Shown piece after piece: positions 1-18,880 of a stretch of DNA of 38,839 bases. The stretch is taken from NCBI GenBank assembly GCA_903838125.1, contig CAILXF010000023.1, positions 1 through 38,839 on the forward strand, given 5' to 3'. The first letter of the stretch is position 1, and every line of letters starts with the position of its first letter. A program made the position numbers and the translations under genes. This stretch comes from an uncultured Pseudomonadota bacterium (GTDB lineage: Bacteria > Pseudomonadota > Gammaproteobacteria > Burkholderiales > Methylophilaceae). Below the pieces are notes generated by a model. That model worked only from the letters and a program-made list of their open reading frames with translations. It was not told the DNA's origin and ran no database searches.

Positions 1-361
1 ATATTCCACCTAGATTGTCTGATGGGTGGCCCCATTCTGCTGCCAACCAAGTATCGTTAAAGTCTAACCAACGTATCATGGCGCCGATATTGAAAGCTGC
101 AAGAATTGGGTCTAACTGGAAGGTGGTACCAGGAACCTTTGCGCCGTTAGGCACAATAGTGCCAGATACCACTGGGCCTAATAACTTGACGCAAGCTGGA
201 TAGTCTAAGGCTTCAAAGCCACAACCTAAAGTATCTATCAGGCAGTTACGTGCAGTATCAAAGGCTTCATCTGATTTAATTTCAAAATCAGCAACATAAT
301 TGGCGATATCAACCAATACTTGATCTGGGGCAGGGCGTACGTTTGAGATGTGAGATGACAT
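1..361 (-). CDS. prpD: 2-methylcitrate dehydratase PrpD (N-terminal part, cut by window edge)
   Basis: PrpD dehydrates 2-methylcitrate to 2-methyl-cis-aconitate in the cytoplasmic methylcitrate cycle. Only the first 120 codons are present; the reading frame runs off the left end of the window. The start ATG is the reverse complement of bases 359-361 and gives a protein beginning [20 protein letters not shown], followed by the MmgE/PrpD-type segment with [18 protein letters not shown] and, further on, [20 protein letters not shown], which is characteristic of PrpD. It follows prpC by 17 bp on the same strand and is the last visible gene of the minus-strand prp operon. The family assignment is secure; the C-terminal two thirds cannot be judged. 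Confidence 0.9.
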
Positions 362-378
362 GATGTGCTTTCAGTAAA

Positions 379-1530
379 TTAACGGTTTTCTAAAGGAAGG
401 TAAGGGCGATTTTCAGGGCCGATATATTCAGCATTCGGGCGTATTATTTTATTGTCTATACGCTGCTCAATCACGTGGGCTACCCAACCGGTAGTGCGCG
501 AGATCACAAATATTGGTGTAAACATGCCAGTAGGAATACCCATCATATGGTAACTGGAGGCGCTGTACCAATCCAGGTTGGGAAACATTTTTTTCTCACG
601 CCACATCGTGTTCTCTATGCGCGCGGATACATCAAATAATGTCATGTCGCCATTGTCTTGACATAAACTGCGACTCACTTCTTTGATGGATTCATTTCTA
701 GGGTCAGCAATGGTGTACACAGGATGGCCAAATCCGATAATAATTTCTTTCCGGGCCATACGCAGCATGATGTCTGCTTCTGCTTCATTTGCGTTGCGAT
801 AGCGCTCAATAATTTCCATGGCGGCTTCATTAGCACCGCCATGTTTAGGGCCACGCAGCGCACCAATTGCGCCGGTAATGCAGGAATACATATCAGACAA
901 GGTGCCAGCAATCACACGCCCTGTAAAAGTAGAGGCATTAAATTCATGCTCCGCGTACAGCACTAGAGATGTATTCATTGCCCGTACGTGTAAATCAGAC
1001 GGAGTTTTTCCATGCAAAAGTTGCAGAAAATGTGCTGCGATCGAATCATCGTCAGTTTCGACTTCAATGCGTTTATGGTTATGGCTAAAATGGTACCAGT
1101 AGATCAAAATTGAGCCAAAGCAAGCGATTAAGCGATCACCCAATAGTTTAGCATCATCAATGTTGCGGTCTTGTGATTCTGGCTCAAGCGTGCCTAGCAT
1201 TGAACACCCAGTGCGCATTACATCCATAGGATGAGCACTGGCAGGGATTTGTTCTAATACAGTTTTTAATGCCGTTGGCAAGCCACGCAGAGTTTTTAAT
1301 TTTTGATGATAAGCGCTAAGCTGGATCTTATTTGGCAGTTCACCATGAATAAGCAAATATGCAACCTCTTCAAAAGTTGCGTATTGTGCTAGTTCAGTAA
1401 TGTCGTAGCCGCGATAATGGAGGTCATTACCAGTATGACCCACCGTGCAAATGGCAGTAGTGCCAGCAGAAACGCCGGCGAGGGCTACGCCTTTTTTCTT
1501 TTTGATTTCAATAGGGGCTGCGCTCGTCAC
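379..1530 (-). CDS. prpC: 2-methylcitrate synthase PrpC
   Basis: Condenses propionyl-CoA with oxaloacetate to 2-methylcitrate, the entry step of the methylcitrate cycle. The 383-residue length is usual for PrpC, shorter than TCA citrate synthase. The citrate-synthase catalytic triad is visible: His230 in [10 protein letters not shown], His269 in [14 protein letters not shown] and Asp320 in [10 protein letters not shown]. The N-terminal [13 protein letters not shown] and HYRGYDI segments are also PrpC-like. Its start overlaps the prpB stop region by one base (1530), so it is translationally coupled within the prp operon. Some PrpC enzymes also accept acetyl-CoA, so a partial citrate-synthase role is possible. 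Confidence 0.95.
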
Positions 1531-2414
1531 TATTTTTCTCCTCTAAATAACTCATCCAGTTTTTGTTCAAATACGTGGTAGCCAAGGTGCTCATATAGAT
1601 CAGCACGGCTTTGCATCAGATCAATCACATTTTTCTGGCTACCATCTTTGCGCACAGCTTGATAGACTTTAAGCGCAGCTTGGTTCATAGCTCTAAATGC
1701 TGAGAGTGGGTACAGCACCATGCTGACATCAACTTCGCGAAGTTCGTCTACTGTAAATAAAGGCGTAGAGCCAAATTCGGTAATATTAGCTAATACTGGA
1801 ACTTTAACTGCGGCTGCAAATTGTTTATACATTCCTAGTTCGGTAATGGCTTCTGGGAAAATCATATCGGCACCAGCTTCTACGCAGGCGCAGGCTCGGT
1901 CTATTGCTGATTGCAGGCCTTCTACTGCTAGCGCATCGGTACGTGCCATAATTACAAAATTAGCATCAGTTTTTGCATCAACGGCAGCTTTGACTCTGTC
2001 TACCATTTCCGCTTGGCTAACAATGGCCTTGTTTGGTCTATGACCACAACGCTTGGCTTGCACTTGGTCTTCAATATGCACGGCAGCAGCGCCAGCTTTA
2101 ATCATACTTTTAACACTGCGAGCAATATTAAAAGCACCGCCAAACCCTGTGTCAATATCCACTAATAACGGTGTGTCAGTGGCATCGGTGATGCGGCGTA
2201 CATCAATTAACACATCTTCCAATGATGAAATGCCTAAGTCGGGTAGCCCTAAGGAACCTGCAGCCACGCCCCCACCAGAAAGATAAAGTGCTTTATAGCC
2301 CGTTTGAGTAGCAAGCATGGCGTGATAGGCGTTAATCGCGCCTATAATCTGTAATGGTTTTTCTTGGGCTAGCGCCTGACGAAACCTAGCGCCGGCTGAA
2401 GTTGCAGTTGTCAT
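1530..2414 (-). CDS. prpB: 2-methylisocitrate lyase PrpB
   Basis: Cleaves 2-methylisocitrate to pyruvate and succinate, the last step of the methylcitrate cycle. An open frame extends upstream to 2468, but I place the start at the ATG at 2414 ([15 protein letters not shown]). That choice gives 294 residues, the usual PrpB length, avoids overlap with the upstream CitE-like gene and leaves an AGG about 7 bases upstream. The isocitrate-lyase family signature KRCGHRPNK contains the catalytic Cys123, in the same numbering as the E. coli enzyme. Asp86 and Asp88 ([10 protein letters not shown]) and Glu115 (HIEDQ) match the Mg-binding residues. It lies between a CitE-like lyase and prpC. Confidence 0.93.
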
Positions 2415-2442
2415 ATAAGTACCTGATATTGAAGAGGGTGTA

Positions 2443-3438
2443 CTAGCTAAAAAATGCCTGCGCAGCATCGTTTGGAATTGGCGTATTGGTTAATTTAGCT
2501 TTTTGCAAAATTTCCCAGAAATAGCGATATGTGGCGCGATCATGCAGTTCGCCATCGTATTGAATTGGGCCCCAACCTACTTGTTGTGCGGCAAGTAAAA
2601 TATTGGCAGCATCGTTCACTTCATCGAAGTTAGGTTTCATTGCGTCAACAATGGCTTGAATTTGTGTAGGGTAAATGCTCCACATACGCAAAAAGCCAAA
2701 TTCATTGCGTGCTCTAGAAGCATCAGAAAAAGTAGTTTCTACATTTTTTAAGTCTAATGTTACGTTATGTGCAGGAACAACACCATTTGCAAGCGCGGCA
2801 GCCACTACTTCCGCTTTAGCTCTAGCGAGTAGACGATGTTCAAATTGTGCAGGGCTACGCATGGCTGAAGCTGGAATCGCACCATGATGGCCGCTGACAA
2901 AATCCATTAAACCAAAATCAAGAACTTGTATCCAAGGCAGCGCTGCAATTTCAAACACTTGTTTTAGCGCGCCATGGGTTTCAATTAGGGCGTGAATTGG
3001 TATTTCTCGGCTGATATTATTACTTTTCGCTACGGCTTGAATGTAACCAATCATCTCCGATAGTTGCGCTGCATTGGTGGCCTTTGGAATGGTAATGTAG
3101 CTAATAATTTGACCCAAACCTTTCACCAGAATATCTACATCAAGTCTCCAAGCTGGGTGCGTGTAATCATGGATGCGTGCACCGGCCATGCGTACTTTAT
3201 TTGCCTCACTATTTAATACGCGCACAATCATTTCCGCATGCTCACGTTCTTGGCCTGCCATGGCGCCGTCTTCACAGTCACAAGTGATATCAAATACTGG
3301 ACCGATGGTCTCTTGTAGCTGTAATGCTTTTAGGATGAGCTTTTCACTGCCAGCAAAATGCTCACAAGAAGGAATGATTGGGAACGCTTTTTCGCCACTA
3401 AATAGGGCGACGTTCGGGTGCACGAGTGTGGTATTCAT
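2443..3438 (-). CDS. HpcH/HpaI (CitE-like) CoA-ester lyase, 331 aa
   Basis: Member of the CitE/malyl-CoA lyase group of TIM-barrel enzymes that make or break 3-hydroxyacyl-CoA thioesters such as malyl-CoA, beta-methylmalyl-CoA or citramalyl-CoA. Visible family landmarks are the acidic motif [10 protein letters not shown] near residue 55, the metal-binding Glu in [10 protein letters not shown], the Asp in [10 protein letters not shown] and, where most members have GKxxIHPxQ, the variant [10 protein letters not shown]. The gene lies 5 bp downstream of the MaoC-type dehydratase and just upstream of prpB. Cleavage of beta-methylmalyl-CoA to glyoxylate and propionyl-CoA would feed the cycle directly. 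That substrate is inferred from context; citramalyl-CoA or malyl-CoA are alternatives. Confidence 0.8.
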
Positions 3439-3443: not shown

Positions 3444-4529
3444 CTATCCTTGTTTGCGTGGCATAAGCACGGTGTAATCTAAATCTAATACAACATTAGG
3501 GTGATAAGCAGTTTTGCCTGCCGTTTCAATATGGGTGCTCGCTAAGCTATCTGCGCTTTGATTTTTGACGCCCACCATACGCAGTCTTAATGCAGCAATA
3601 TCCACGCGGTCAGCTAATGTCCATTTTTCAACAATTTCGGTCCAAGTGTAGATAGTGTCATCGCCAAAACATGGGTTGCAATGATTGCCGGCATTGATTG
3701 CCGCTATGGATAATGCATTTTCTAATCCATCGTGAGAAAGTGCACGACAGATTGAGATTACATGTCCGCCGTACATTAACCGACGTCCAAATGGGCTGGC
3801 TTTCATCATGACATCATCAAAATGTAGGCGCGCATTATTCTGATAAAGTTTCGTAGCGAGCGTATGGTCTGTGTCAGTAATTGTCATGCCTGCAGGATGG
3901 TTAATCCGTTCGCCCACTTGGTAGTCATCCCAAAGGTAGGCGCCACCAGTTGTAGTCGTATCAAAATGGCGGGCATCAAGAAAGCTAGGGACTGCTAATT
4001 CGTTAGCAGCTACATGCGAGGAAAGTGCAGGCACTACTGTTTCTGGCGCTGCAGCCTCTAATTTATTTTTATGCACCATTACCCACCGCACCCAAGACAG
4101 CACTGGTTGAAATAGCTGATTCACAGATACTGAGCGTACATAGACCACACCAGATTTGCCGTTAGAATTTTGTTTTAGCCCAATCACAGTAGAGCGGGTG
4201 CTTAAAGTGTCACCTATATAAACTGGATGCAGAAAACGCACATCGGAATAACCTAAATTGGCAATCGCATTTACAGAGATATCTGGTACGGTTTTACCAA
4301 AGGCCAAGTGGAATGCAAGCATATCGTCTACTGGTCGGCTTTTGTATCCTAAAGATTGTGCTACAGGCTCTGCGCTATGGAGCACCTGGCGTGCGCCAGT
4401 TAGTGCAATGTAAAGGGATACTTCACCTTCACCTACGGTTCGAGGTGTGGCATGTGCGAGCACTTGCCCGACATAAAAGTCTTCAAAGTAATTGCCAGCA
4501 TTGACTTTGTTGGCTGATGAATTAGACAT
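3444..4529 (-). CDS. Beta-methylmalyl-CoA dehydratase / mesaconyl-CoA hydratase-like double MaoC protein
   Basis: A 361-residue protein with two MaoC-type hot-dog halves, the size and layout of mesaconyl-CoA hydratase (Mch) from the ethylmalonyl-CoA, 3-hydroxypropionate and methylaspartate routes. The N-terminal half has FEDFYVGQVLAHATPRTVGE and AFGKTVPDISVNAIANLGY, both Mch-like. The second half carries DDYQVGERINH, TKLYQNNARLHFDD and GRRLMYGGHVIS, with the Asn-x-x-Arg-x-His hydratase signature. It overlaps the upstream CitE-like gene by 8 bp and sits 5 bp before another. In known pathways this enzyme interconverts mesaconyl-CoA and beta-methylmalyl-CoA, next to a beta-methylmalyl-CoA lyase, exactly the gene neighbourhood here. 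Direction and true substrate are inferred. Confidence 0.85.
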   Translation of the reverse strand: MSNSSANKVNAGNYFEDFYVGQVLAHATPRTVGEGEVSLYIALTGARQVLHSAEPVAQSLGYKSRPVDDMLAFHLAFGKTVPDISVNAIANLGYSDVRFLHPVYIGDTLSTRSTVIGLKQNSNGKSGVVYVRSVSVNQLFQPVLSWVRWVMVHKNKLEAAAPETVVPALSSHVAANELAVPSFLDARHFDTTTTGGAYLWDDYQVGERINHPAGMTITDTDHTLATKLYQNNARLHFDDVMMKASPFGRRLMYGGHVISICRALSHDGLENALSIAAINAGNHCNPCFGDDTIYTWTEIVEKWTLADRVDIAALRLRMVGVKNQSADSLASTHIETAGKTAYHPNVVLDLDYTVLMPRKQG

Positions 4530-5403
4530 GGCTTTCTTCCAAGGTGGTAATCATTTCACTAAGTTTTAGTAAGCGTGTAGCCGCCTTGACATGGTGATGC
4601 TCAACCAATTTATCATTAACCACTACTGTGCCTTTTCCGCTTTCATTTGCTGCTTTAAGTGCTTGAATAATTTCACGTGCATTACTCACTTCCGAGGTCT
4701 TGGGTGTGTAAGCATCGTTGCTGTAATCTAGTTGTGCTGGATGTACCAATGATTTTCCGTCAAAACCCATATCTCGACCTAGGCGACAAGCATATTCAAA
4801 AGAATGCATATTTTTAAAGTCGCTGGTAATGCCGTCAACTACAGCACGCCCGTACGCACGAGCCGCTAAGATTACTAGAGATAGCGACGTTAGAATCGCA
4901 GAGCGCTCATGGGTGACTCGGGCGTGTAACTGTGAAATTAAATCTGAAGTTGCCATGACAATACAGACAATACGGTCAGATGCGCTGGCAATTTCTTTTG
5001 CGTTTAGAACTGCAATAGGACTTTCTATCATGACCATGATTGGGATATGTCCGCCACCTGCAGCATCGAGCAGTGCTAATGCGTTAAGCACATCTTCTCG
5101 CGACTCAATGTTAGGAAATAGGATTGCATCCACATTAGTTTTTGCGATTGCTTTAATGTCATCGCTACCCCATGGTGAGTTTAAGTCGTTCACGCGCACA
5201 ACGACTTCACGTGAACCGTACCCACCTTCGTTTACAAAATGGACGACATTAGCGCGAGATTCTTCTTTGCATTCAACTAAGATAGGGTCACCTAAATCAA
5301 GAATCACTGAATCCGCATGCAACGTGCGTGCACGCTCTAAGTAGTGAGTATTGCATCCCGGTACGTAAAGCATCGAGCGGCGAGGGCGAAAGTATTGATT
5401 CAT
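4522..5403 (-). CDS. CitE-like lyase family protein with altered motifs, 293 aa
   Basis: First gene of the minus-strand prp operon. It has the CitE N-terminus (RRSMLYVPGCNTHYLERA), the metal-binding Glu in IMVMIESPIAVLNAKEIA, an Asp in MATSDLISQL and the C-terminal GFDGKSLVHPAQL. Two positions are unusual: the normal DLEDAV acidic motif reads DLGDPI, so the Glu is replaced by Gly, and the usual VxGxxDL reads VMATSDL. The length equals bacterial CitE and CitE-like lyases. It may be a lyase with shifted substrate use or a partner of the other CitE-like proteins. No citD, citF or citX is present, so it is not a citrate lyase subunit. Overlap with the next gene is 8 bp. Confidence 0.78.
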   Translation of the reverse strand: MNQYFRPRRSMLYVPGCNTHYLERARTLHADSVILDLGDPILVECKEESRANVVHFVNEGGYGSREVVVRVNDLNSPWGSDDIKAIAKTNVDAILFPNIESREDVLNALALLDAAGGGHIPIMVMIESPIAVLNAKEIASASDRIVCIVMATSDLISQLHARVTHERSAILTSLSLVILAARAYGRAVVDGITSDFKNMHSFEYACRLGRDMGFDGKSLVHPAQLDYSNDAYTPKTSEVSNAREIIQALKAANESGKGTVVVNDKLVEHHHVKAATRLLKLSEMITTLEESHV

Positions 5404-5618: not shown

Positions 5619-5630
5619 TCTTATATAAGA
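5619..5630. promoter_or_regulatory. Candidate GntR operator palindrome
   Basis: TCTTATATAAGA is a perfect 12-bp palindrome, extended imperfectly to 18 bp (16 of 18 positions symmetric, 5616-5633). It lies 14 bp upstream of the prp -35 box and overlaps possible -10 sequences (TATAAG, TATAAA) for the divergent gntR gene. Symmetric AT-rich sites with a central TATA are typical of HutC/FadR-type regulators. Binding is inferred, not shown. Confidence 0.6.
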
Positions 5631-5737: not shown

Positions 5738-6475
5738 ATGAAAGAGAAAAACTACAGTTCACCCAGCTATAAGCCACTTTATGAGCAGATTAAAGTGTTG
5801 CTTACGCAAAGCTTAATTGGTGGTGAGTGGGGCCCTGGCGATATGATTCCAAGCGAAATTGAGCTGGCAAGTCGTTATAAGGTTAGCCAAGGCACTGTTC
5901 GTAAAGCTATTGATGCACTGGCAACCGAGCACATCTTGCTCCGTCGCCAAGGTAAGGGCACGTTTGTGGCAACCCATAGTGCAGAAGGCATGAAGCTACG
6001 CTTTTTAAGATTAACTTCGATCGACGGACAAAAAGAATTTTTAAAAAATGAGTTTATTTCCTGCACTAAAGGTAAGGCAGATGTCCGTATGGGGCAGATA
6101 CTAGATTTGAAAGCGGGTGCTTCAATTATTGAAATTAAACGCCTGTTAACCTTTTCGGGAAGGCCATTGATTTACGATCATATTGTTGTGCCAGCTAGTC
6201 CATTTAAAGGATTAAGCGGTAATCGCGTAGAAGAGAAAAATGGGTCTATGTACAGTATGTACGAGTCTGAATTCGGTATACGTATGATACGTGCAGAAGA
6301 AAGATTGAAAGCGGTTGGGGCTAGCGGTGATGTGGCGGTGGCACTAGGGTTAAAGAATGGAGAACCTTTATTAAGCATAGAGCGCGTCTCGTTCACCTAT
6401 GGTGATAAACCTATGGAGTGGCGATTAGGCTTATGTATTACTGATAATCATCATTACATGAACGAACTAGAGTAG
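5738..6475 (+). CDS. GntR/HutC-family transcriptional regulator
   Basis: A 245-residue regulator with an N-terminal winged helix-turn-helix (residues about 11-80: PLYEQIKVLLTQSLIGGEW, DMIPSEIELASRYKVSQGT, then RQGKGTFVA) and a C-terminal UTRA ligand domain (about 95-240, with KRLLTFSGRPLIYDHI and PLLSIERVSF). UTRA domains bind small organic acids, sugars or CoA-linked metabolites. It is divergent from the prp operon and 96 bp upstream of the malic enzyme/sdh arm, so it most likely controls one or both arms and itself through the palindrome at 5619. The ATG has an AGGAT ribosome-binding sequence about 9 bases upstream. The ligand (methylcitrate, a TCA acid or a C5 acid) cannot be read from sequence. 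Confidence 0.9.
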   Translation: MKEKNYSSPSYKPLYEQIKVLLTQSLIGGEWGPGDMIPSEIELASRYKVSQGTVRKAIDALATEHILLRRQGKGTFVATHSAEGMKLRFLRLTSIDGQKEFLKNEFISCTKGKADVRMGQILDLKAGASIIEIKRLLTFSGRPLIYDHIVVPASPFKGLSGNRVEEKNGSMYSMYESEFGIRMIRAEERLKAVGASGDVAVALGLKNGEPLLSIERVSFTYGDKPMEWRLGLCITDNHHYMNELE

Positions 6476-6571: not shown

Positions 6572-7777
6572 ATGGACTTAAAACAAGCTGCATTGGATTA
6601 CCACCAGTTTCCTAAACCAGGAAAGCTTTCAGTGGAGTCTTCTAAGCCATGTGCCACTCAAGAAGACTTGTCTTTGGCCTACACTCCTGGTGTTGCAGAG
6701 CCTGTGCGTGAGATTAACCGCGACCCCGCAAATGCTTACAAATATACTAATAAAGGTAACCTAGTTGCAGTCATTACCGATGGCACTGCCGTATTAGGGT
6801 TAGGCAATATGGGCGCGTTGGCAAGTAAGCCAGTCATGGAGGGCAAGGCGATATTATTTAAACGATTTGCCGATATCGATGTCTTTGATATTGAAATTAC
6901 TGCACCTAGCGTAGAAGCTTTTATTGAAACCGTGGTAAATATCGCGCCAACCTTTGGTGGCATCAATTTAGAGGATATTGCAGCGCCACATTGCTTTCGT
7001 ATCGAAAAAGAATTACGTGAACGCTTAGACATTCCAGTATTTCATGATGATCAGCATGGTACTGCGGTGATTGTTGCGGCGGCTTTATCCAATGCTTTAG
7101 AAATTCAAGGTAAAACCTTGGCGTCTGCAAAAATCGTATTTCTTGGTGCCGGTGCAGCAGGTTGCTCTTGTGCTCGCCTACTTAAGCTAATGGGCGCAAC
7201 TAATATCACTATGGTTGATAAATCAGGTGTGTTGAATACAGCGCGCAGCGATTTGCATGACAATAACCGTCATTTGGCGGTAGCGCCGACTGCAGCAAAA
7301 TCTTTGGCAGATGTCATGCCAAATGCCGATGTGTTTGTTGGAGTTTCTGCGGCCAATACTTTAGCGCCAGAATTATTATTGTTAATGGCGCCTAATCCAG
7401 TGGTATTTGCTTTGGCTAATCCTGATCCTGAAATTCAACCTAGCTTAGCGCATTCAGTACGCGATGATATTTTAATGGCGACTGGACGTTCTGACTTTCC
7501 AAATCAGGTCAATAATGCCTTGTGTTTCCCGTATTTGTTCCGCGGTGCGCTTGATGCTAAGGCTAAGCAAATTACAGATGAAATGCAGATTGCTGCCGCT
7601 CTTGCCTTAGCGGCGTTGGCGCGTCAACCTGTGCCAGAGGACGTGCTTAAGGCTTATCATGTAACTAGCTTAAGCTTCGGTAAAGATTACATCATACCTA
7701 AGCCGTTTGATACACGCTTACTGAAAGTGGTATCAGGTGCAGTGGCAGATGCTGCGCGCTTGCAGCAAGCCAAGTAG
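6572..7777 (+). CDS. NAD(P)-dependent malic enzyme, short form
   Basis: Oxidatively decarboxylates malate to pyruvate and CO2. The 401-residue protein is the short form without the C-terminal phosphotransacetylase domain of MaeB. It shows the malic N-terminal domain ([34 protein letters not shown]), the metal/substrate segment [13 protein letters not shown] and the nucleotide-binding loop [15 protein letters not shown]. It starts the plus-strand arm and is only 10 bp from sdhC, so it is probably cotranscribed with succinate dehydrogenase. In this order it converts the malate produced by Sdh plus fumarase into pyruvate, completing net oxidation of the succinate released by PrpB. Cofactor preference is not determined. 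Confidence 0.93.
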
Positions 7778-7787: not shown

Positions 7788-8201
7788 ATGATGAATAGTA
7801 ATCGTAAAGTGCAGTCTACCAATCCAAAAAAAGTACGCCCGAAGAACCTGAATCTATTTACGATTAGGATGCCAATTAATGCGTTGGTGTCTATTTTGCA
7901 TAGAGTGACTGGGTGTGCCTTATTTTTAGCTTTGCCATTATTGTTGGTGACTTTTCAATTATCAATTAGCTCGGCTTCTAAGTTTCAGTTGGTGCAAGAT
8001 TTGATGCATTCTCCTATAGCTAAATTGATTGTTCTAGGTTTGGCATGGTCATTTTTTCACCATTTTTTTGCGGGCATTCGCCATTTAGCGATGGATGTGC
8101 ACTGGGCGACAACCTTAATTAAAGCACGCTATACCAGCAAAGTGGTTTTTGTATTAGGTGGGTTAGCAACATTGCTACTTGCCATCTCTTGGGTTTTTTA
8201 A
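7788..8201 (+). CDS. sdhC: Succinate dehydrogenase cytochrome b556 subunit SdhC
   Basis: Membrane anchor subunit of complex II. It has three predicted transmembrane helices (about 34-57, 78-97 and 113-135). The quinone/heme signature is present: SILHRVTG near residue 35 and HHFFAGIRHLAMD near 91, where His92 aligns with the heme b ligand of E. coli SdhC. Two adjacent ATG codons (7788 and 7791) are possible starts. SdhD begins 4 bp after its stop, so translation is probably coupled. Confidence 0.93.
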   Translation: MMNSNRKVQSTNPKKVRPKNLNLFTIRMPINALVSILHRVTGCALFLALPLLLVTFQLSISSASKFQLVQDLMHSPIAKLIVLGLAWSFFHHFFAGIRHLAMDVHWATTLIKARYTSKVVFVLGGLATLLLAISWVF

Positions 8202-8205
8202 CGAT

Positions 8206-10359: not shown

Positions 10360-11121
10360 ATGAAATTTTCTATTTATCGTTATAACCCTGATGTAGATAA
10401 AAAGCCGTATATGCAAGACTATGATGTTGTCTTAGAGGACAGCGATCAAATGCTTCTTGACGCCTTACTTCGGATTAAAGACTTGGATGATAGTTTAAGT
10501 CTACGCAAGTCTTGTCGTGAAGGCGTTTGCGGTTCTGACAGCATGAATATTAATGGTAAAAACGGTTTGGCTTGCATTACCAAGCTTTCTGATTTAGAAG
10601 AACCTGTTGTTCTGCGTCCTATGCCAGGATTGCCGGTTATTCGTGACTTGATCGTTGATATGACGCAGTTTTTTGAAAACTATAATTCGGTTAATCCTTA
10701 TCTTGTTAACAACGACGAGCCCCCAGAAACTGAGCGCTTACAGTCCCCAGAAGATCGCGCGAAATTAGATGGTTTGTATGAATGTATTTTGTGTGGCGCT
10801 TGTACCACTTCATGCCCTTCATTCTGGTGGAATCCAGACAAATTTGTAGGCCCAGCAGGTTTATTGCAAGCCTATCGTTTTATTGTAGATAGTCGTGATC
10901 AGGCTTTAGATGATCGTTTAGAGAACTTGGAAGCGCCTGACCGATTGTATCGTTGTCATAACATTATGAACTGTGTCGATGTCTGTCCTAAAAAACTAAA
11001 TCCATCTTTAGCTATTGCTAGAATAAAAGATCTAAAAATTAAAGAAGCGAATCACAGTAAGACGCTTGAGAGCAAGGCACCGACGAAAAGACAGATTGCC
11101 ATCAAAAGTCTGCATGACTGA
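10360..11121 (+). CDS. sdhB: Succinate dehydrogenase iron-sulfur subunit SdhB
   Basis: Electron-transfer subunit with three Fe-S centres. The [2Fe-2S] ligands are Cys52, Cys57, Asp60 and Cys72. The second cluster set is Cys143, Cys146, Cys149 and Cys153, and the third is completed by Cys200, Cys206 and Cys210. Asp instead of Cys at the third [2Fe-2S] position is normal in bacterial SdhB. At 253 residues it is slightly longer than usual because of a lysine-rich tail of about 20 residues after the last cluster domain. The tail end overlaps the region where sdhE starts. Confidence 0.97.
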   Translation: MKFSIYRYNPDVDKKPYMQDYDVVLEDSDQMLLDALLRIKDLDDSLSLRKSCREGVCGSDSMNINGKNGLACITKLSDLEEPVVLRPMPGLPVIRDLIVDMTQFFENYNSVNPYLVNNDEPPETERLQSPEDRAKLDGLYECILCGACTTSCPSFWWNPDKFVGPAGLLQAYRFIVDSRDQALDDRLENLEAPDRLYRCHNIMNCVDVCPKKLNPSLAIARIKDLKIKEANHSKTLESKAPTKRQIAIKSLHD

Positions 11122-11122
11122 G

Positions 11123-11413
11123 ATGGTAACGCAATACACCATGACTGAAGTTGAAGTCAAACGGCTAGGTTGGCGGTGCCGTCGCGGTTTGTTGGAATTA
11201 GATATTGTTTTGCAGCGTTTTTCAGCAAAATATCTTGCTGAGTTAAGTAACGATGAGTTGGTAGTGTTTGATATATTGTTAGATTATCCAGACAACGAGT
11301 TACTAGACGTGGTGACATTAAGGAAAGAATTGAAAAACCTTGGGCCAGAAGAAACTACGTTTTTTAAAGCGCCAGCCTTACAGCAATTGCTAGAAAAATT
11401 AAGAACCAATTAA
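11123..11413 (+). CDS. sdhE: Succinate dehydrogenase assembly factor SdhE (FAD flavinylation)
   Basis: Small protein of the SdhE/YgfY/Sdh5 family that helps attach FAD to SdhA. The defining RGxxE motif is present in CRRGLLELDIVL, followed by the acidic LSNDELVVFDILLDYPDNEL. The open frame begins at 11066, but starts at 11114, 11123 or 11141 fit the family length of about 90 residues better. I choose 11123, which follows the sdhB stop by one base. Its position directly after sdhB is typical of betaproteobacteria. Confidence 0.88.
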   Translation: MVTQYTMTEVEVKRLGWRCRRGLLELDIVLQRFSAKYLAELSNDELVVFDILLDYPDNELLDVVTLRKELKNLGPEETTFFKAPALQQLLEKLRTN

Positions 11414-11458: not shown

Positions 11459-12610
11459 ATGAGCGAAGCACATATAGACACTAGTGAAAATAATTTCGGC
11501 CATGTCCGCCACCAAGCGGCTAATGCTGCGCTAGGTGACAGTTGGCCGGGAATACAACTATATTACCCACCGGTGAAATATTCGCCTGCGCTTGGTATCT
11601 ATGAAGACATGGAGCAAGCAGCAGCGCGCATGAAAAGACATGCACATAATACTAATGCGCATACGCTAATTTTCGATTTGGAAGATGGTTGCCGACAAAA
11701 AGAAATGAGCCGTGATTTATTACGGCAAGAGCTGCCTAAACTCAAGCATGAAAAAGAGGTCACGATAGCTATTCGTGCTAATTCGTTCCGTACTGAAGAG
11801 TATGAATTGGATATGCAGTTGGTCAGTGATTTGGCAGATTGTATTGATGTGGTCATGTTAGCCAAAGCCGGTGAGGCTTATGGCGCTGCTGAAGTACGTG
11901 ATTTATCTAGCTTTCTGATTGAGGTTAATCCGAACATCACTATCCAGCCCATTATTGAGCATCCTAAATCACTTAAAATCGCGCCAGAGCTCATGCAGTA
12001 CAGCACAGTCAAGCATGTAGTGTTTGGTATCCATGACTTTTCAAAAGCCATGGGCATCCACATAACGCCAGAAAACTGGATTAATGAGTTGCAGTTCTAT
12101 ATGAATCAACTCATGTTTGAAGCACGGATTGCCGGAAAGGGTGTTATTGGCGGTGTTGAAACCTTGATTGGTAGCAGCATTATGCCGGAAAAGTTTTTAG
12201 AGCCACACGATGTTAGGCGTTGGTTAGATTTGCATGGTGACAACGAGTCTCGCGTAGTTTATAAGCATGCTTGTATGGAGTCCGCCATGGGCTTGACTGG
12301 AAAGCAGGTGATTCACCCTGGACATATTCATTTATGTAAAACCGCCTATACGCCTTCACCAACAGAAGTAAATCAGAAAGTACGTATTTTGAAAGCGGCA
12401 ATTGAAGCTGATGCCTTACTTGGTGGTGCGATTAAGTTTGAAGGCGAAATGTTGGATCCGCCTATGTTTGGTAAAGCGCTACAAACGTTATTGCGTGCAC
12501 ATGCACTGCGTGCGCTGACCCCTGAAGATATGAATTTCGCCGTACATGTACTTGAGCTATTGCCAGCACAAGTGGTACGTCAAAACTGGCCATATGGAGT
12601 TTTACTATGA
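11459..12610 (+). CDS. CitE-like HpcH/HpaI CoA-ester lyase, 383 aa
   Basis: Third CitE-like protein of the locus and the longest. It keeps the canonical acidic motif (TLIFDLEDGCRQKEM), the metal-binding Glu (PIIEHPKSL) and Asp (VFGIHDFSKAMGI) and the CoA-binding GKQVIHPGHIH. An N-terminal extension of about 60 residues and an enlarged C-terminal region (about 320-383) distinguish it from the two minus-strand paralogues. Its last codon overlaps the start of the acyl-CoA synthetase by 4 bp (ATGA), so the ligase and lyase very likely act on the same substrate: the ligase makes a CoA thioester and the lyase cleaves a hydroxylated form of it. The substrate is unknown. Confidence 0.82.
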   Translation: MSEAHIDTSENNFGHVRHQAANAALGDSWPGIQLYYPPVKYSPALGIYEDMEQAAARMKRHAHNTNAHTLIFDLEDGCRQKEMSRDLLRQELPKLKHEKEVTIAIRANSFRTEEYELDMQLVSDLADCIDVVMLAKAGEAYGAAEVRDLSSFLIEVNPNITIQPIIEHPKSLKIAPELMQYSTVKHVVFGIHDFSKAMGIHITPENWINELQFYMNQLMFEARIAGKGVIGGVETLIGSSIMPEKFLEPHDVRRWLDLHGDNESRVVYKHACMESAMGLTGKQVIHPGHIHLCKTAYTPSPTEVNQKVRILKAAIEADALLGGAIKFEGEMLDPPMFGKALQTLLRAHALRALTPEDMNFAVHVLELLPAQVVRQNWPYGVLL

Positions 12611-14238
12611 GTACATTTAAGCCATTTGAACCTTGGACATGGCAAGTCCCTAAGCATTTCAATATCGGGGTAGCTTGTACTGATCAGCATTTGAATACCC
12701 CCGTGGCAAAAACGATTGCTATGATCGTTGAAGACGATGTGCTTGGTACAGCGCAAATTAGTTTTGAACAGTTAGCTAGACGTACTGACCAGTTTGCACA
12801 GTTATTGCGTAATCTAGACGTTGGCTTAGGGGATCGTGTATTAATCCGCCTACCCAATAACCTCGATTATCCGACTGCCTTTTTGGGTGCGATGAAACGC
12901 GGTGCGATTGCAGTGCCAACTTCAACATTATTGACGCCTGAAGAAGTTGCCTATTTAGCGCGTGATTCCAGCGCTACAGTATTGGTCACAGACAAAGCGG
13001 CATGGCCACAGTTGCAAGGTCATTTAAATGACTTAAAAAATCTAAAGCATATCTTCTTATCGGGCGAGGGGGCAGTCAGCGCACATCCAAGTTTGAATGT
13101 ATGTGATTTAGATGCAGTTTTAGCAACTATTAATCACTGCGAGCCGGCACAATCAACTTCCGCTGATGATCCTGCATATTTAGTTTATACGTCAGGTACA
13201 ACGGGTTACCCTAAAGGGGTTTTGCATGCACACCGTGCTTTAATCGGTCGCGAGCCAGCATCTAAATACTGGTTTAACTTTGCTAACGATAGCCAAGATC
13301 GGATTATGCATTCAGGCAAGTTCAACTGGACCTATGTCTTGGGCTCAGGCCTAATGGATCCGCTATATTTAGGTAAAACCGTGATTGTGCATGAAGGCAA
13401 AAACGATGCCGATACCTGGACGCGCTTGATTGCCAAGCACAGCGCCACCATTTTTGTTGGTGTACCGACAATTTATCGGCAAATTATACAAAAAAGCAAA
13501 GCCTTGCAGGCTGATGTGCCAACCCTACGCCATTGCATGAGTGCTGGAGAGCATTTGTCTGATGAAGTCCTGCAGCAATGGCGTGATCGTTTTGGCGTAG
13601 ATATTTATGAAGCCGTTGGCATGAGCGAGTTTTCTTATTACTTATCCCAAAGCATTGCACGCCCAATTCGCGCAGGTTCAGCTGGCTTTCCACAGCCTGG
13701 CCATGATATTCAATTATTAGATCCTGAAACTTTACAACCAGTTGCCACTGGCGAAGAAGGCATGATCTGTGTGCCTGATAATGACCCAGGCCTGTTCTTG
13801 CGCTACTGGAATCTTGATGAAGAAACGGCCAAATACAAACATGATGGCTGGTTTTTTACTGGTGATTATGCCCGCTACGATGGCGATGGTTATATTTGGT
13901 TTTTGGGTCGTAAAGATGACATTATTAAAAGCTTCGGCTACCGTGTATCGCCCTATGAAATCGAGCGTGTTTATAAATCACATCCTGCCGTGGCTGATTG
14001 TGCTGCCGTTGGTGAAGAATTAGAAAAGGACAAGCTATTAGTAGTGACTTATGTCATTTTACAGCCTAATGCTGAGGTAACTGCCGACGAGTTGTTAAGC
14101 TTTGGTAAACAACATTTAGCGGCTTATAAAGCACCTAAAACCGTTTATTTGACTAAAGATTTCCCCCGCACTAAAAATGGTAAAATCCTACGCAAAGATA
14201 TTAACAATAAAATGGCTTACGCAAAATCCGCGCGCTAA
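12607..14238 (+). CDS. AMP-forming acyl-CoA synthetase
   Basis: ANL-superfamily ligase of 543 residues that activates a carboxylic acid to its CoA thioester using ATP. It shows the P-loop LVYTSGTTGYPKGVLHAHRA, the A5 region YEAVGMSEFS, the A7 aspartate in GWFFTGDYARYDGDG, the hinge GRKDDIIKSFGYRVSP and the A10 catalytic lysine Lys526 in RTKNGKILRKD. The sequence resembles the benzoate/medium-chain/acetyl-like ligase groups, but the acid pocket cannot be assigned by eye. Coupling to the CitE-like gene points to a short hydroxy- or dicarboxylic acid, or to propionate itself. Confidence 0.87.
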   Translation: MSTFKPFEPWTWQVPKHFNIGVACTDQHLNTPVAKTIAMIVEDDVLGTAQISFEQLARRTDQFAQLLRNLDVGLGDRVLIRLPNNLDYPTAFLGAMKRGAIAVPTSTLLTPEEVAYLARDSSATVLVTDKAAWPQLQGHLNDLKNLKHIFLSGEGAVSAHPSLNVCDLDAVLATINHCEPAQSTSADDPAYLVYTSGTTGYPKGVLHAHRALIGREPASKYWFNFANDSQDRIMHSGKFNWTYVLGSGLMDPLYLGKTVIVHEGKNDADTWTRLIAKHSATIFVGVPTIYRQIIQKSKALQADVPTLRHCMSAGEHLSDEVLQQWRDRFGVDIYEAVGMSEFSYYLSQSIARPIRAGSAGFPQPGHDIQLLDPETLQPVATGEEGMICVPDNDPGLFLRYWNLDEETAKYKHDGWFFTGDYARYDGDGYIWFLGRKDDIIKSFGYRVSPYEIERVYKSHPAVADCAAVGEELEKDKLLVVTYVILQPNAEVTADELLSFGKQHLAAYKAPKTVYLTKDFPRTKNGKILRKDINNKMAYAKSAR

Positions 14239-14273: not shown

Positions 14274-15830
14274 TTGACCACTGTTCATCAAGAAGACTTT
14301 ATTCAAAGCATTGCTGATGCCTTGCAATATATTTCTTATTACCATCCTGTTGACTATATACAGGCGTTAGGGCATGCCTATGAGGCAGAGCAGTCGCCAG
14401 CAGCTAAGGACGCAATCGCACAAATTCTAACAAACTCCAGATTATGTGCTGAAGGTAAAAGACCGCTATGTCAGGATACTGGCATTGTTGTTGCTTTCGT
14501 TAATGTCGGTATGCAAGTGCGCTGGGATACTAAATCAGGTGTAGCGTTGATGGATGTAGTGCAAATGGTGAACGCGGGTGTTAGCCGAGCTTACCAATTG
14601 CCTGAGAATAAATTACGCGCGTCAATTGTGAGTGATCCTGCTGGAAAGCGCACCAATACTAAAGACAACACACCTGCAATCGTACATGTTTCTCTAGTTG
14701 CGGGTGATAAAGTGGATGTGAGTATTGCTGCAAAGGGCGGGGGTTCGGAGAATAAAGCGAAGCTGGCAATGCTTAACCCAAATGACAGCATTGTGGATTG
14801 GATCTTAGAAGTTGTGCCCAAAATGGGTGCAGGTTGGTGCCCACCAGGCATGCTAGGAATAGGAATTGGTGGCAGTGCGGAAAAAGCCATGTTACTCGCT
14901 AAAGAATCATTAATGGCGCCGATTGATATCCATGAACTCAAAACAAAAGGTGCGAAGAATCGGATAGAGGAGTTGCGCTTAGAAATTTTTGATAAAGTAA
15001 ATGCACTGGGTATAGGTGCGCAAGGTTTAGGCGGTTTAGCCACCGTGCTTGATGTGAAAATTTTGGATTATCCTACTCATGCAGCCAGCTTGCCTGTGGC
15101 GATTATCCCTAACTGCGCAGCAACGCGCCATGTACACTTTGAATTAGATGGTAGCGGTGCTGCTGAATTGGTCGCACCAAATTTAGATGATTGGCCTAAG
15201 GTGCATTGGTCACCTAGCGCTGATTCACCAAGAGTGAATTTGGATACGATTACACGGGCTGATATTCAAGCTTGGCAGCCAGGACAGACTTTATTGCTAA
15301 GTGGCAAGTTGCTTACAGGACGTGATGCAGCGCATAAGCGCATCGCGACTATGCTAGCTAAGGGTGAAAAGTTACCAGTAGATTTTAGCAATCGCTTTAT
15401 TTATTACGTAGGGCCTGTAGATCCAGTGGGTGATGAAGCTGTAGGGCCTGCGGGTCCAACGACGGCAACACGTATGGATGGTTTTACCGAAATGATGCTT
15501 AGCCAAACTGGGTTATTGGGAATGGTAGGTAAGGCTGAGCGTGGTGATGATACGATAGCCGCCATTGCCAAGCACCAGTCAATTTACTTGACTGCAGTTG
15601 GTGGTGCCGCTTATTTGGTGAGTAAAGCGATTAAAAAAGCAGAAGTATTGGCCTTTGCAGACTTGGGCATGGAGGCGATATATGAGTTTACGGTGCAAGA
15701 TATGCCTGTAACTGTTGCGGTTGATAGTAAGGGTGTTTCAGTGCACAGCACTGGACCGGCTTTATGGAAAGCAAATATTGCGGCAGAAAAGTTGGCTCGG
15801 CATCCGCAAATAGAGATTACTGAGATTTAG
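14274..15830 (+). CDS. fumA: Class I (Fe-S) fumarate hydratase
   Basis: Hydrates fumarate to malate, linking succinate dehydrogenase to malic enzyme in this locus. The 518-residue protein matches single-chain class I fumarases with fused alpha and beta domains. Alpha features are RPLCQDTGIVVAFVNVG, with the first cluster Cys, GKRTNTKDNTPA, VSIAAKGGGSENKAKL and GAGWCPPGMLGIGIGGSAEKA. The beta domain starts near residue 330 and has YYVGPVDPVGDEAVGPAGP and TTATRMDGFTEMML. The start codon is TTG (14274) with an AGG 8 bases upstream; no ATG fits. It is oxygen-sensitive in other bacteria. Confidence 0.93.
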   Translation: MTTVHQEDFIQSIADALQYISYYHPVDYIQALGHAYEAEQSPAAKDAIAQILTNSRLCAEGKRPLCQDTGIVVAFVNVGMQVRWDTKSGVALMDVVQMVNAGVSRAYQLPENKLRASIVSDPAGKRTNTKDNTPAIVHVSLVAGDKVDVSIAAKGGGSENKAKLAMLNPNDSIVDWILEVVPKMGAGWCPPGMLGIGIGGSAEKAMLLAKESLMAPIDIHELKTKGAKNRIEELRLEIFDKVNALGIGAQGLGGLATVLDVKILDYPTHAASLPVAIIPNCAATRHVHFELDGSGAAELVAPNLDDWPKVHWSPSADSPRVNLDTITRADIQAWQPGQTLLLSGKLLTGRDAAHKRIATMLAKGEKLPVDFSNRFIYYVGPVDPVGDEAVGPAGPTTATRMDGFTEMMLSQTGLLGMVGKAERGDDTIAAIAKHQSIYLTAVGGAAYLVSKAIKKAEVLAFADLGMEAIYEFTVQDMPVTVAVDSKGVSVHSTGPALWKANIAAEKLARHPQIEITEI

Positions 15831-15849
15831 CCACTTTATGACGAGCACT

Positions 15850-15873: not shown

Positions 15874-15906
15874 TGACTATATTTTTTCATAAGCGACCGT
15901 GACATT

Positions 15907-16200: not shown

Positions 16201-16255
16201 TAGAACTAAATTAGATAAACTATGCTGCATAGGCGCTAGCCACTAGTGCAGCTTG

Positions 16256-16261
16256 TATAAT
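16256..16261 (+). promoter_or_regulatory. Candidate -10 box upstream of acnB
   Basis: An exact TATAAT sits 40 bp before the acnB start codon, in the 100-bp gap after the EF-hand gene. No recognisable -35 hexamer is present at 16-18 bp spacing, so acnB may use an activator-dependent promoter or be read through from upstream. Confidence 0.35.
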
Positions 16262-16300
16262 GAACATTAACGATTCAATAAAACTTAAGACGCCTAACCC

Positions 16301-18880
16301 ATGCTAAAAGCCTATGCTGCGCACGTTCAAGAACGTGCAACCCAAAATCTACCACCTTTACCTTTAAGTGCCGAGCAAGTGGCAGAAGTCGTAAGTCTGC
16401 TAAAAAATCCACCCGTGGGTGAAGGTGAAAATCTACTCAATTTAATTAGCAATCGAACTCCAGCAGGCGTAGACCAAGCCGCTTACGTAAAGGCTGCATT
16501 TTTATCTGACTTAGCGATTGGTAAAGCACAGTCACCATTAATTAACGCAGATCTTGCTGTGGAATTGCTCGGTACGATGCTAGGTGGATACAACGTGCAG
16601 GCGTTGGTGGCTTTGCTTGACACTACGATGGCAGTCGCGGCGGTAAAAGCGTTGTCTAATACGATCTTAATGTTTGATGCATTTCATGATGTAGATGAAA
16701 AAATGAAAGCGGGCAATGTGCATGCTAAAGCACTGATCGAATCTTGGGCTAATGCCGAGTGGTTTAGTAATGCGCCAGCACTAGAGCAAGAAATTAAAGT
16801 GGTGGTGTTTAAAGTCGATGGTGAAACCAATACCGATGATTTAAGCCCAGCTCAAGAGGCTTGGAGCCGTCCAGATATTCCATTGCACGCCAAAGCGATG
16901 TTGGTCAGTAAAATGCCTGATGGTTTAAAGTTAATTGAAACCCTCAAGCAAAAAGGCTTGCCTTTGGCTTACGTTGGTGATGTCGTTGGTACAGGATCTT
17001 CACGTAAATCTGCTATTAACTCCCTGCAGTGGTTTATGGGAGATGATATTCCTAACATCCCAAATAAGCGTACTGGCGGCGTGATTCTAGGCAGCAAAAT
17101 TGCGCCTATTTTCTTTAATACGGCTGAAGATTCTGGAGCTTTACCGATTCAGTGCGACGTCTCTAAGATGCAAACTGGAGATGTCATCACGATAAAGCCC
17201 TACGCAGGACAAGTATTGAATGCTTTAGGAGATGTGATTTCAAGTTTTGATCTAGCACCTTTGACGATGCCTGATGAAGTGCGAGCTGGCGGCCGTATTT
17301 CCTTGATCATTGGTCGTGGATTAACCGCTAATGCACGTGAAGCATTAGGGTTGGCACCATCTACTATATTTATCAAGTCAATGACACCTAAAGACACCGG
17401 GAAAGGCTATACCTTAGCGCAAAAAATGGTGGGTCGTGCTTGTGGTTTGCCTGAAGGTACTGGTGTTCGTCCCGGTAGTTACTGTGAACCAAAAGCGACC
17501 ACGGTAGGTTCGCAAGATACTACTGGTGGCATGACACGTGATGAGCTGAAAGAACTCGCTTGTTTAGGCTTTAGTGCAGATTTAGTGATGCAAAGTTTCT
17601 GCCATACTGCTGCTTACCCAAAACCGGTTGATATTAAGTTGCAACATAGCTTGCCAGAATTTATGTCGAGTCGTGGTGGTGTTTCTTTACGTCCTGGTGA
17701 TGGTGTGATTCACTCTTGGTTAAACCGCCTAATTCTGCCAGATACAGTCGGCACAGGAGGTGACTCACATACACGTTTCCCTATCGGCATTTCTTTTCCT
17801 GCTGGTTCTGGATTAGTTGCATTTGCTGCTGCGATGGGGGCAATGCCACTTGATATGCCAGAATCAGTTCTGGTTCGATTCACAGGCACAATGCAGCCTG
17901 GTATTACACTAAGGGATTTGGTAAATGCTATTCCTTATGCCGCTATTCAAAAAGGCGAGCTTACAGTAGGTAAGCAAGGCAAAAAAAATGTATTTAATGG
18001 CCGTATTTTAGAAATTGAAGGTTTGCCAGATTTAAAAGTGGAGCAGGCGTTTGAATTTGCTGATGCTTCAGCTGAGAGATCAGCCAATGGCTGTACAGTA
18101 AAGTTAAATAAAGAGCCAGTAATTGAGTTCTTAACTTCAAATATCGTATTGATGCAAAATATGATTGATAACGGTTATGAAGATGCACGCTCACTGCAAC
18201 GCCGTATTGCGAGTATGCAGGCATGGTTAGCTAAACCTGAATTGCTGTCACCAGATGCAGATGCAGAATATGCTTACATCATTGAAATTGACCTAAATGA
18301 AATTAAAGAGCCACTGTTAGCTTGCCCTAATGATCCAGATGACATTAAATTGTTGTCAGCTGTGTCAGGCGATAAAGTGGATGAAGTATTTATTGGCAGT
18401 TGTATGACCAATATTGGCCATTATCGCGCAGCTGCCAAAGTGCTTGAAGGCTCTACCAATATCCCAACCCGTTTATGGATAGCGCCACCTACACGTATGG
18501 ATGAAGATCAATTGCGTAATGAGGGTGTGTATTCTGTATTTGGTGTGGCTGGAGCGCGCACAGAGATCCCAGGTTGTTCACTGTGCATGGGCAATCAGGC
18601 GCGTGTTGCGGATAAAGCCACTGTGTTCTCTACCAGTACCCGAAATTTTGATAACCGCATGGGTCGAGATGCGCGCGTATACTTAGGTTCTGCCGAATTG
18701 GCTGCTGTGTGTGCCAAGCTAGGCCGCATCCCAAGTTATGCTGAATATATGGAAACGGTAGGAAATAAATTGCAGAATGTGGCTGAAATCTATAAATATC
18801 TTAGTTTTGATCAAATGCCAGATTATTCTGCCAGCATGGCCAAAGCCAAGAAAATTATTGCCATTGCAGAAGTTAGCTAA
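16301..18880 (+). CDS. acnB: Bifunctional aconitate hydratase B / 2-methylisocitrate dehydratase
   Basis: Fe-S hydratase of 859 residues with the AcnB layout: N-terminal HEAT-like domain (to about 160), the swivelling domain with [19 protein letters not shown] (about residue 225-245), then the catalytic domains. Cluster cysteines are seen in SFCHTAAYP (about 431), [18 protein letters not shown] and [12 protein letters not shown]. In the methylcitrate cycle AcnB rehydrates 2-methyl-cis-aconitate, the product of PrpD, to 2-methylisocitrate, the substrate of PrpB. It also serves as the TCA aconitase. Its presence here fills the one step missing from prpBCD. Confidence 0.96.

Follow-up and report, generated by a model that had tools for sequence, protein, structure and literature searches.

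The closest described relative of the locus studied here is the methylcitric acid cycle gene cluster of Methylophilaceae. The available text of PMC4109929 lists for it the genes prpCBD, cyl1, maoC, cyl2, gntR, mdh, sdhABCD, cyl3, prpE, fum and can, which occur in each of the nine genomes that it tabulates and in an order that it calls conserved. A 2013 study (PMC3728764, in the sections available) reports high in situ expression of the cluster in Methylotenera and strong induction of gntR, and states that the processed metabolite 'still remains unknown'; a first-pass annotation of our DNA likewise knew of no assigned substrate for the CitE/MaoC set. For the marine OM43 strain NB0046, passages of PMC5120137 list a CitE-like gene next to one for an acyl-CoA ligase, with values that differ about tenfold between treatments, and since the gene numbers neighbour, the pair is probably CitE2 plus the ligase described below. 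The same cluster occupies the first half of a 38,839-nucleotide stretch from an uncultured Methylophilaceae bacterium (contig C23 of a 1.61 Mb genome, 86% complete), here called the window. The cluster itself is therefore not new, its CitE and MaoC genes being listed already in passages of PMC4109929. New here, beyond the published accounts of the cluster, are a separable six-gene core, a predicted operator, an association with a propionyl-CoA sink, a distinction between the three Cyl (CitE-like) proteins and an argument that the ligase is not PrpE.

Our best explanation, held tentatively and at somewhat less than an even chance, is that the core unit breaks a branched C5 dicarboxylic acid down to propionyl-CoA and glyoxylate, as one two-arm regulon under a GntR-UTRA regulator acting at a shared operator. 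The acid is probably mesaconate. The class I fumarase would convert (S)-citramalate to mesaconate, the ligase would activate mesaconate to mesaconyl-CoA, MaoC would hydrate this to beta-methylmalyl-CoA and CitE3 would split the product into glyoxylate and propionyl-CoA. A CitE lyase could join glyoxylate and acetyl-CoA, with CitE1 freeing malate in place of the missing malate synthase. From propionyl-CoA and oxaloacetate, PrpC, PrpD, AcnB and PrpB would then yield pyruvate and succinate, after which the succinate would pass through SdhCDAB, fumarase and malic enzyme to pyruvate; these methylcitrate and succinate-to-pyruvate steps are standard chemistry of well-identified families. We infer the individual activities, and likewise the substrate and the direction of the locus. 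In the open-licence literature, searched in part, we found neither such a splitting of a C5 acid nor a citramalate-methylcitrate cycle proposed for Methylophilaceae.

What we observe is a conserved set of parts and its relation to a propionyl-CoA sink. Neighbour maps, drawn with a home-made gene caller, define a core of two divergent arms, citE3-maoC-citE1 and gntR-citE2-ligase. This core stands alone in Gallionellales-labelled genomes, those of the G521 family (the G521 record bears the title Gallionellales bacterium): ten of this family's 16 bearers were fetched and all ten hold the stand-alone six-gene unit, two of them cut by contig ends. Methylophilaceae have the full cluster, with the sink genes built into the unit, and elsewhere the sink genes lie apart. 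Two Methylophaga-labelled genomes (L077 and L078, the second entered again as L054) show lig-citE2-malic-gntR / citE1-maoC-citE3-prpBCD with no sdh genes between. Six further loci (L055-L058, L074, L079) carry citE2-lig-citE1-maoC plus citE3 without gntR, and in L074 (Thiobacillus-labelled) and L079 a divergent class I fumarase gene adjoins the unit. From the arrangements seen across loci, the window cluster can be read as the stand-alone unit with prpBCD added on one arm, malic enzyme and sdh genes placed between gntR and citE2, and both fumarase and acnB added as well; we infer in what order these insertions and additions arose. MaoC is present in 92 of 150 family genomes, and a full-length orthologue (at least 370 bits) occurs in seven genomes besides the window's own in a sample of 369 class genomes; in two of these seven (G417, G306) no CitE gene adjoins it. 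Because MaoC is this frequent, the order recurs in the mapped Methylophilaceae loci and the cluster is in print, the arrangement is not a chance one. In Cupriavidus lacunae (L131) maoC-citE3 stands alone with a GntR-UTRA gene, near genes for an acyl-CoA dehydrogenase, an ATP-grasp CoA-ligase-like protein, a citrate-synthase-like domain protein and an MFS transporter (L131:3458-14463), perhaps another pathway with the same maoC-citE3 pair.

The divergent region between citE1 and gntR contains a palindrome with the core TCTTATATAAGA and the extended consensus ATCTTATGTCTTATATAAGATATAAAA. We compared every mapped locus in which citE1 and gntR were found, divergent and less than 600 bases apart, which gave 33 regions with at least two genomes represented twice. 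All 33 hold the core with at most one mismatch, 30 of them exactly. Across 134 loci (2.38 Mb in all, with some genomes represented twice) the core gave 42 matches, 41 upstream of citE1 or gntR of the unit and one elsewhere (L136), while five Markov shuffles of the window returned none. In G025 other genes separate the arms by about 5 kb and each arm has an operator copy; G018 likewise has a copy at each arm, on different contigs and both near contig starts, so that the real spacing is unreadable. As these separated arms each keep a copy, both arms appear to form one functional system, for which the conservation of the operator, with binding predicted, is the best evidence; the view that the CitE/MaoC/ligase set and the methylcitrate genes belong together as a unit is upheld. 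The core was not found in the units without gntR (L055-L058, L074, L079), nor in the separate prp loci L188-L207, which therefore seem to lie outside the control of this regulator. The papers listed in a search for the operator core and for PrpQ were irrelevant.

The unit goes together with a propionyl-CoA sink. Our chosen panel of 39 genomes comprised 16 Methylophilaceae bearers, 12 Methylophilaceae non-bearers, 10 other bearers and Cupriavidus L131, and CitE2 was present in 26 of them. Of these 26, 24 have prpB over its cut-off and the other two (G233, G357) carry genes of the methylmalonyl-CoA mutase family (PF01642), so that a sink, counted as prpB or the mutase family, accompanies the unit in 26 of 26. 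Among the Methylophilaceae, no prpB over cut-off occurs in any of the 12 non-bearers; a weak match to the PrpB model in a 436-437 aa frame of two Methylophilaceae genomes (G027, G019) may be isocitrate lyase. The G521 family is the cleaner test, since prp is linked to the unit in Methylophilaceae. Among its 120 genomes CitE2 occurs in 16 and prpB in 47: in all 16 bearers as against 31 of 104 non-bearers (hypergeometric 4.8e-8, a figure that ignores relatedness). In 12 of these bearers prpB is on a different contig and in the other four at least 22 kb away. The claimed link of the set to the burning of propionyl-CoA thus holds even where the genes are unlinked. The association is one-sided, in that the unit entails a sink and a sink does not entail the unit. 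This fits a unit that produces propionyl-CoA and is also compatible with one that consumes it.

MaoC strongly resembles an enzyme of solved structure. The window protein is 50% identical over about 350 residues to PDB 8hgn, named Beta-methylmalyl-CoA dehydratase (full length, 357 bits), and 55% identical to 4e3e; both entries are presumably from Chloroflexus. A mesaconyl-CoA hydratase / beta-methylmalyl-CoA dehydratase type is thus supported by homology, in accordance with the first-pass description of a mesaconyl-CoA hydratase-like protein. One scan of a genome collection confirmed 541 loci, and neighbourhoods were compared in the best 80 of them, all named. The closest MaoC among these 80 belongs to the Methylotenera oryzisoli record L081 (76%), which, like the published gene order, agrees with a Methylophilaceae origin of the window. 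Three genes after MaoC comes sdhA in 24 of the 80, for the most part alphaproteobacterial loci where MaoC is immediately preceded by a CitE1 relative. Many alphaproteobacterial loci (L085, L095, L100, L107, L119, L144 and others) indeed place the CitE1 relative and MaoC directly upstream of sdhCDAB, which ties this pair to succinate dehydrogenase beyond the window's lineage. In L109, L113 and L135 (Chromatiaceae-, Magnetococcales- and Gammaproteobacteria-labelled) the orthologue has as neighbours a pair of CitE proteins, a transferase of the CaiB type and a 283-aa protein without assignment, sets that resemble the 3-hydroxypropionate bicycle. The best model for the transferase representative is succinate-glutarate CoA-transferase, followed by mesaconate models, none over cut-off; the representative of the 283-aa protein matched no model.

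All three Cyl proteins are PF03328 members. The earlier reading of three CitE-like lyases stands for CitE2 and CitE3, which keep the catalytic lyase residues, but not for CitE1, which does not keep them and resembles a thioesterase. From the 80-locus set our residue survey took copies longer than 230 aa, and some genomes entered it twice. The set Glu44, Asp45, Arg76, Glu141, Asp168 and Asp299 is complete in 27 of 27 CitE2 copies and in every CitE3 copy long enough to include Glu44 (28 of 28; another three start after it). According to the available text of PMC3832036, Glu44 and Asp45 are water ligands of Mg, with Glu44 called absolutely conserved, and CitE-like enzymes have Asp299, except for a Glu in those grouping with the Rhodobacter malyl-CoA thioesterase. 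Glu stands at 299 in CitE1 of the window, in every aligned Methylophilaceae and Gallionellales-labelled copy, and in all 39 CitE1-like copies from outside the unit, most of them from alphaproteobacteria (the unit copy of L075 was removed from this group). By this Glu299 signature CitE1 looks like a protein of the malyl-CoA thioesterase type. In a tree of 52 chosen rows the window CitE1 shares one clade with the outside-unit alphaproteobacterial-type copies (support 100/98), and CitE3 groups with 3QQW and 3R4I. At the contact to the methyl of the keto acid CitE3 has Trp, as in glyoxylate-using lyases, and CitE2 has Gln, as in the human citramalyl-CoA lyase CLYBL; published descriptions of malyl-CoA lyases, in the parts available, give Trp at this contact and an Ala167 that lets propionyl-CoA bind. 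The AlphaFold model of CitE2, built from 16 close relatives, reached a mean pLDDT of 62.8, too poor for a fold search.

Several observations weigh against our explanation. Catalysis by CitE1 is doubtful, since several of its copies have lost catalytic residues. Position 44 is Gly instead of Glu in the window, although the Glu persists in copies of the alphaproteobacterial type; in L055-L057 Asn replaces the Mg ligand Asp168 and Gln occupies position 299, and L058 is without the Arg. Residue 167 is Met in CitE3 and His in CitE2 rather than Ala, a position that does not decide the matter since human CLYBL has Glu there. In comparison with benzoate-CoA ligase, at the presumed pocket positions, no positively charged residue that could hold a second carboxylate is evident in the acyl pocket of the ligase. 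The proteins miss the NCBIfam equivalog cut-offs (MaoC 105.7 against 340 for RipB; CitE1 119.4, CitE3 52.0 and CitE2 48.8 against 375 for RipC), by which itaconate (Rip) degradation is rejected as well. One locus, L076, has lig-maoC without CitE. In L059 (5805-12097) and L060 MaoC orthologues 51% identical to the window protein lie without CitE neighbours beside two acyl-CoA-dehydrogenase-family proteins, which may be a different use of the hydratase. Finally, co-occurrence with a sink does not fix the direction of the pathway.

As to where the C5 acid comes from, the ethylmalonyl-CoA pathway is rejected as a source of mesaconyl-CoA: crotonyl-CoA carboxylase/reductase exceeds the TIGR01751 cut-off in 0 of the 39 panel genomes (1 of 14 controls over; the incompleteness of the window genome given above applies). 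The first-pass annotation had the locus take up a C4-C5 acid, for which there is little evidence: no transporter conserved with the unit was found in the mapped loci, where many neighbours were not identified. A TauE/SafE-type gene after citE3 in L055 and the MFS gene near maoC-citE3 in L131 do not recur. In L055 genes for phosphotransacetylase and a kinase of the acetate/propionate family come after the unit (L055:11087-14376), which suggests exchange between acyl-CoA and free acid there.

The rival closest to the published annotation holds that the ligase is a propionyl-CoA synthetase and the cluster burns propionate, with CitE and MaoC in a side role in propionyl-CoA or glyoxylate handling. 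Propionate is the usual substrate of the methylcitrate cycle, the available text of PMC4109929 names the gene prpE, and nothing scores over the cut-off of the PrpE model (TIGR02316, 827 bits) in any of the 28 panel Methylophilaceae. Against this, the cluster ligase is absent from the PrpE-model matches of its own genome, kept at E <= 1e-100; the sole one lies on contig C43 (513 bits). Such matches in 27 of the 28 score 495-599 bits, with none in G018, and are probably acetyl-CoA synthetases; G520, a bearer outside the family, has no match at this threshold. Separate prp operons of the G521 family contain their own 619-639 aa ligase-type gene, 24-28% identical to the window ligase, in 8 of 9 bearer loci (the ninth stops at a contig end) and 10 of 10 non-bearer loci, and the Thiobacillus-labelled G518 likewise has a PrpE-type gene in its prp operon; scores are available for two, G521 with 677 bits, below the cut-off, and G518 with 1079, over it. 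Since these operons have their own PrpE-type gene while the unit keeps its 543-aa ligase, the latter is not simply PrpE, a candidate we mostly reject. The rival also leaves five further conserved genes unexplained, and we consider it unlikely. A comparably low probability goes to the view that the substrate of the unit is a different beta-hydroxyacyl-CoA or dicarboxylate and that propionyl-CoA is among the products. In its favour, Met167 and His167 are unlike known malyl-CoA lyases, CitE2 matched no curated family over cut-off and the 3QQW/3R4I group is one of unknown function in passages of PMC3832036; the full-length, strong likeness of MaoC to beta-methylmalyl-CoA dehydratase argues against it.

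Two further rivals use the same enzymes. In an endogenous citramalate cycle, CitE2 would form citramalyl-CoA from pyruvate and acetyl-CoA, (S)-citramalate would be freed by CitE1 or some other enzyme, fumarase would yield mesaconate, and ligase, MaoC and CitE3 would lead to propionyl-CoA and glyoxylate, the methylcitrate cycle regenerating pyruvate; acetyl-CoA would thus be oxidised or assimilated without 2-oxoglutarate dehydrogenase, isocitrate lyase or B12. The regulon has a candidate for each step described in the available text of PMC8307300, with the methylcitrate cycle replacing propionyl-CoA carboxylase/mutase and malic enzyme serving for pyruvate. CitE2 has the CLYBL-type Gln, the want of a conserved transporter fits an internal source, and class I fumarases, for which passages of PMC4682846 suggest mesaconate activity as a general property, hydrate mesaconate. 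Moreover, 2-oxoglutarate dehydrogenase E1 and canonical malate synthase were found in 0 of the 28 panel Methylophilaceae, bearers and 12 non-bearers alike. However, eight of the ten bearers outside Methylophilaceae have 2-oxoglutarate dehydrogenase and three have malate synthase; together with the 12 non-bearers that lack both, this shows that the unit does not track the absence of 2-oxoglutarate dehydrogenase and gives no support to it as a general substitute for either enzyme. The idea that CitE1 is degenerate only where malate synthase exists also failed, as L057 (G396) has a degenerate copy and malate synthase was not found there. For those enzymes that have been studied, the making of citramalyl-CoA from pyruvate is described, in the sources as available, as an unfavourable reaction. 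CitE1 is degenerate, activation by an AMP-forming ligase would make the cycle costly, and CitE2 is only a candidate for citramalate formation. We regard this rival as rather unlikely, and as quite improbable its full form, a complete citramalate-methylcitrate cycle in which the methylcitrate cycle, Sdh, fumarase and malic enzyme regenerate pyruvate and oxaloacetate. If true, each turn would burn an acetyl-CoA to two CO2 and dispense with 2-oxoglutarate dehydrogenase, isocitrate lyase, malate synthase and B12, a hidden respiratory cycle in 'obligate' methylotrophs and a genetic basis for the long-disputed citramalate cycle. The reverse direction, from glyoxylate and propionyl-CoA via mesaconate and citramalate to pyruvate and acetyl-CoA, would be a free-acid form of the glyoxylate-assimilation half of the 3-hydroxypropionate bicycle. 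Every enzyme type fits this order, MaoC orthologues occur in loci resembling the bicycle, and the asymmetry by which the unit implies prp could reflect a common use of propionyl-CoA. Yet it requires CitE1 to hydrolyse mesaconyl-CoA, a hypothetical activity, and competes with the adjoining prp genes for propionyl-CoA; we also know of no glyoxylate source in RuMP methylotrophs, and consider this direction very improbable.

The gene set that the first-pass annotation reported is confirmed (Table 1), and its interpretation as a whole is partly supported. PrpC, PrpB and AcnB pass curated cut-offs and PrpD is present as an N-terminus only, so the methylcitrate cycle set is complete with the correction that prpD, 485-491 aa in relatives, is cut by the contig start. 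The sdhCDAB-fum-malic enzyme series also holds, with SdhA, SdhC and SdhD over cut-off and a fumarase of class I; an unlisted sdhE is added, and the malic enzyme is half-length. It is without the phosphotransacetylase-like half, as NF009501, a 764-position NADP malic enzyme model, matched it at 8-401 only. The acyl-CoA ligase is an AMP-forming one.

Table 1. Annotated features of the cluster in the window (positions in nucleotides).
Feature	Position	Strand	Basis
prpD, 2-methylcitrate dehydratase, first 120 residues	2..361	-	NF006943/TIGR02330 + PF03972, N-terminus matched; contig begins inside gene
prpC, 2-methylcitrate synthase	379..1530	-	NF009006 681 bits, cut-off 550
prpB, 2-methylisocitrate lyase	1530..2468	-	TIGR02317 436 bits, cut-off 354
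citE3 (cyl), 331 aa, 3QQW/3R4I group; proposed beta-methylmalyl-CoA (malyl-CoA) lyase	2443..3438	-	PDB 3qqw 520 bits; catalytic residues kept; maoC-citE3 pair alone in L131
maoC, 361 aa; proposed mesaconyl-CoA hydratase / beta-methylmalyl-CoA dehydratase	3444..4529	-	PDB 8hgn, full length, 357 bits, 50% identity
citE1 (cyl), 293 aa, CitE-like; putative malyl-CoA-thioesterase type	4522..5403	-	Glu replaces catalytic Asp299; shares a clade with alphaproteobacterial copies that adjoin maoC-sdhCDAB
predicted GntR operator palindrome TTATG-TCTTATATAAGA-TATAA	5614..5635, core 5619-5630	.	conservation in divergent citE1/gntR regions
gntR, GntR-UTRA transcriptional regulator, between divergent arms, common to both	5738..6475	+	PF00392 + PF07702; member of stand-alone six-gene unit
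malic enzyme, 401 aa, without phosphotransacetylase-like half	6572..7777	+	PF00390/PF03949; NF009501
sdhC	7788..8201	+	TIGR02970 over cut-off
sdhD	8179..8553	+	TIGR02968 over cut-off
sdhA	8578..10338	+	TIGR01816 939 bits, cut-off 727
sdhB	10360..11121	+	NF004616 + TIGR00384 over cut-off
sdhE, FAD assembly factor	11066..11413	+	PF03937 over cut-off
citE2 (cyl), 383 aa, CitE-like C-C lyase; proposed citramalyl-CoA or malyl-CoA lyase	11459..12610	+	PF03328 over cut-off; catalytic residues kept in 27/27 copies
AMP-forming acyl-CoA ligase, 543 aa; proposed C5-acid (mesaconate or citramalate) CoA ligase	12607..14238	+	PF00501/PF13193
class I fumarase, possible mesaconase	14274..15830	+	PF05681/PF05683
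acnB, aconitase / 2-methylisocitrate dehydratase	16301..18880	+	TIGR00117 1462 bits, cut-off 1287

Variants of these genes occur elsewhere: in L187 a 756-aa malic enzyme directly follows the ligase (L187:12411-14681), and a 1245-aa open frame in L070 (3008-6745) matches AcnB and the N-terminus of PrpD, apparently a fused aconitase/methylcitrate dehydratase. Downstream of the cluster, an aldehyde dehydrogenase gene adjoins one for a DUF779 protein (20523-22506), and a gene for a HipA-like C-terminal domain protein (23378-24796) adjoins a tRNA-Ser gene (23208-23291). Genes for two cyclopropane-fatty-acid-synthase-family proteins, a DUF1365 protein, flavin amine oxidase-family and fatty acid desaturase-family proteins and a lipocalin (25155-32377) look like a membrane lipid modification cluster.

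Taken together, the six-gene unit, its predicted operator and the named steps may explain a cluster of reported unknown purpose and make the question testable. The 3QQW/3R4I group of CitE-like proteins gains a pathway context, and the same unit in Gallionellales- and Thiobacillus-labelled genomes extends the system beyond the methanol-consuming Methylophilaceae.

The window cluster is the same as the Methylophilaceae cluster listed in the available text of PMC4109929, and its enzyme kinds recur in several other systems. The itaconate Rip/Ict-Ich-Ccl cluster also uses a MaoC hydratase and a CitE lyase on branched C5-CoA esters, whereas our unit is without a CoA-transferase and its MaoC and CitE proteins fall far below the RipB/RipC cut-offs. 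The second cycle of the 3-hydroxypropionate bicycle (Mcl, Mch, Mct, Meh) contains an Mch-type hydratase to which the unit's MaoC is similar; the unit differs in having neither Mct nor Meh and in its CitE subgroups. The lower half of the Rhodobacter ethylmalonyl-CoA pathway (mesaconyl-CoA hydratase, malyl-CoA/beta-methylmalyl-CoA lyase, malyl-CoA thioesterase) has the same enzyme kinds as the unit's MaoC, CitE lyase and CitE thioesterase. In contrast to that pathway and its crotonyl-CoA carboxylase/reductase, not seen over cut-off in our panel, the unit is combined with an AMP-forming ligase and a methylcitrate cycle sink. The haloarchaeal methylaspartate cycle and the citramalate cycle proposed for Rhodospirillum rubrum, as described in the available text of PMC8307300, share with our proposal the sequence from mesaconate via mesaconyl-CoA and beta-methylmalyl-CoA to propionyl-CoA and glyoxylate. 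Here, a ligase would take the place of their CoA-transferase and the methylcitrate cycle that of propionyl-CoA carboxylase/mutase, with the CitE proteins drawn from other subgroups.

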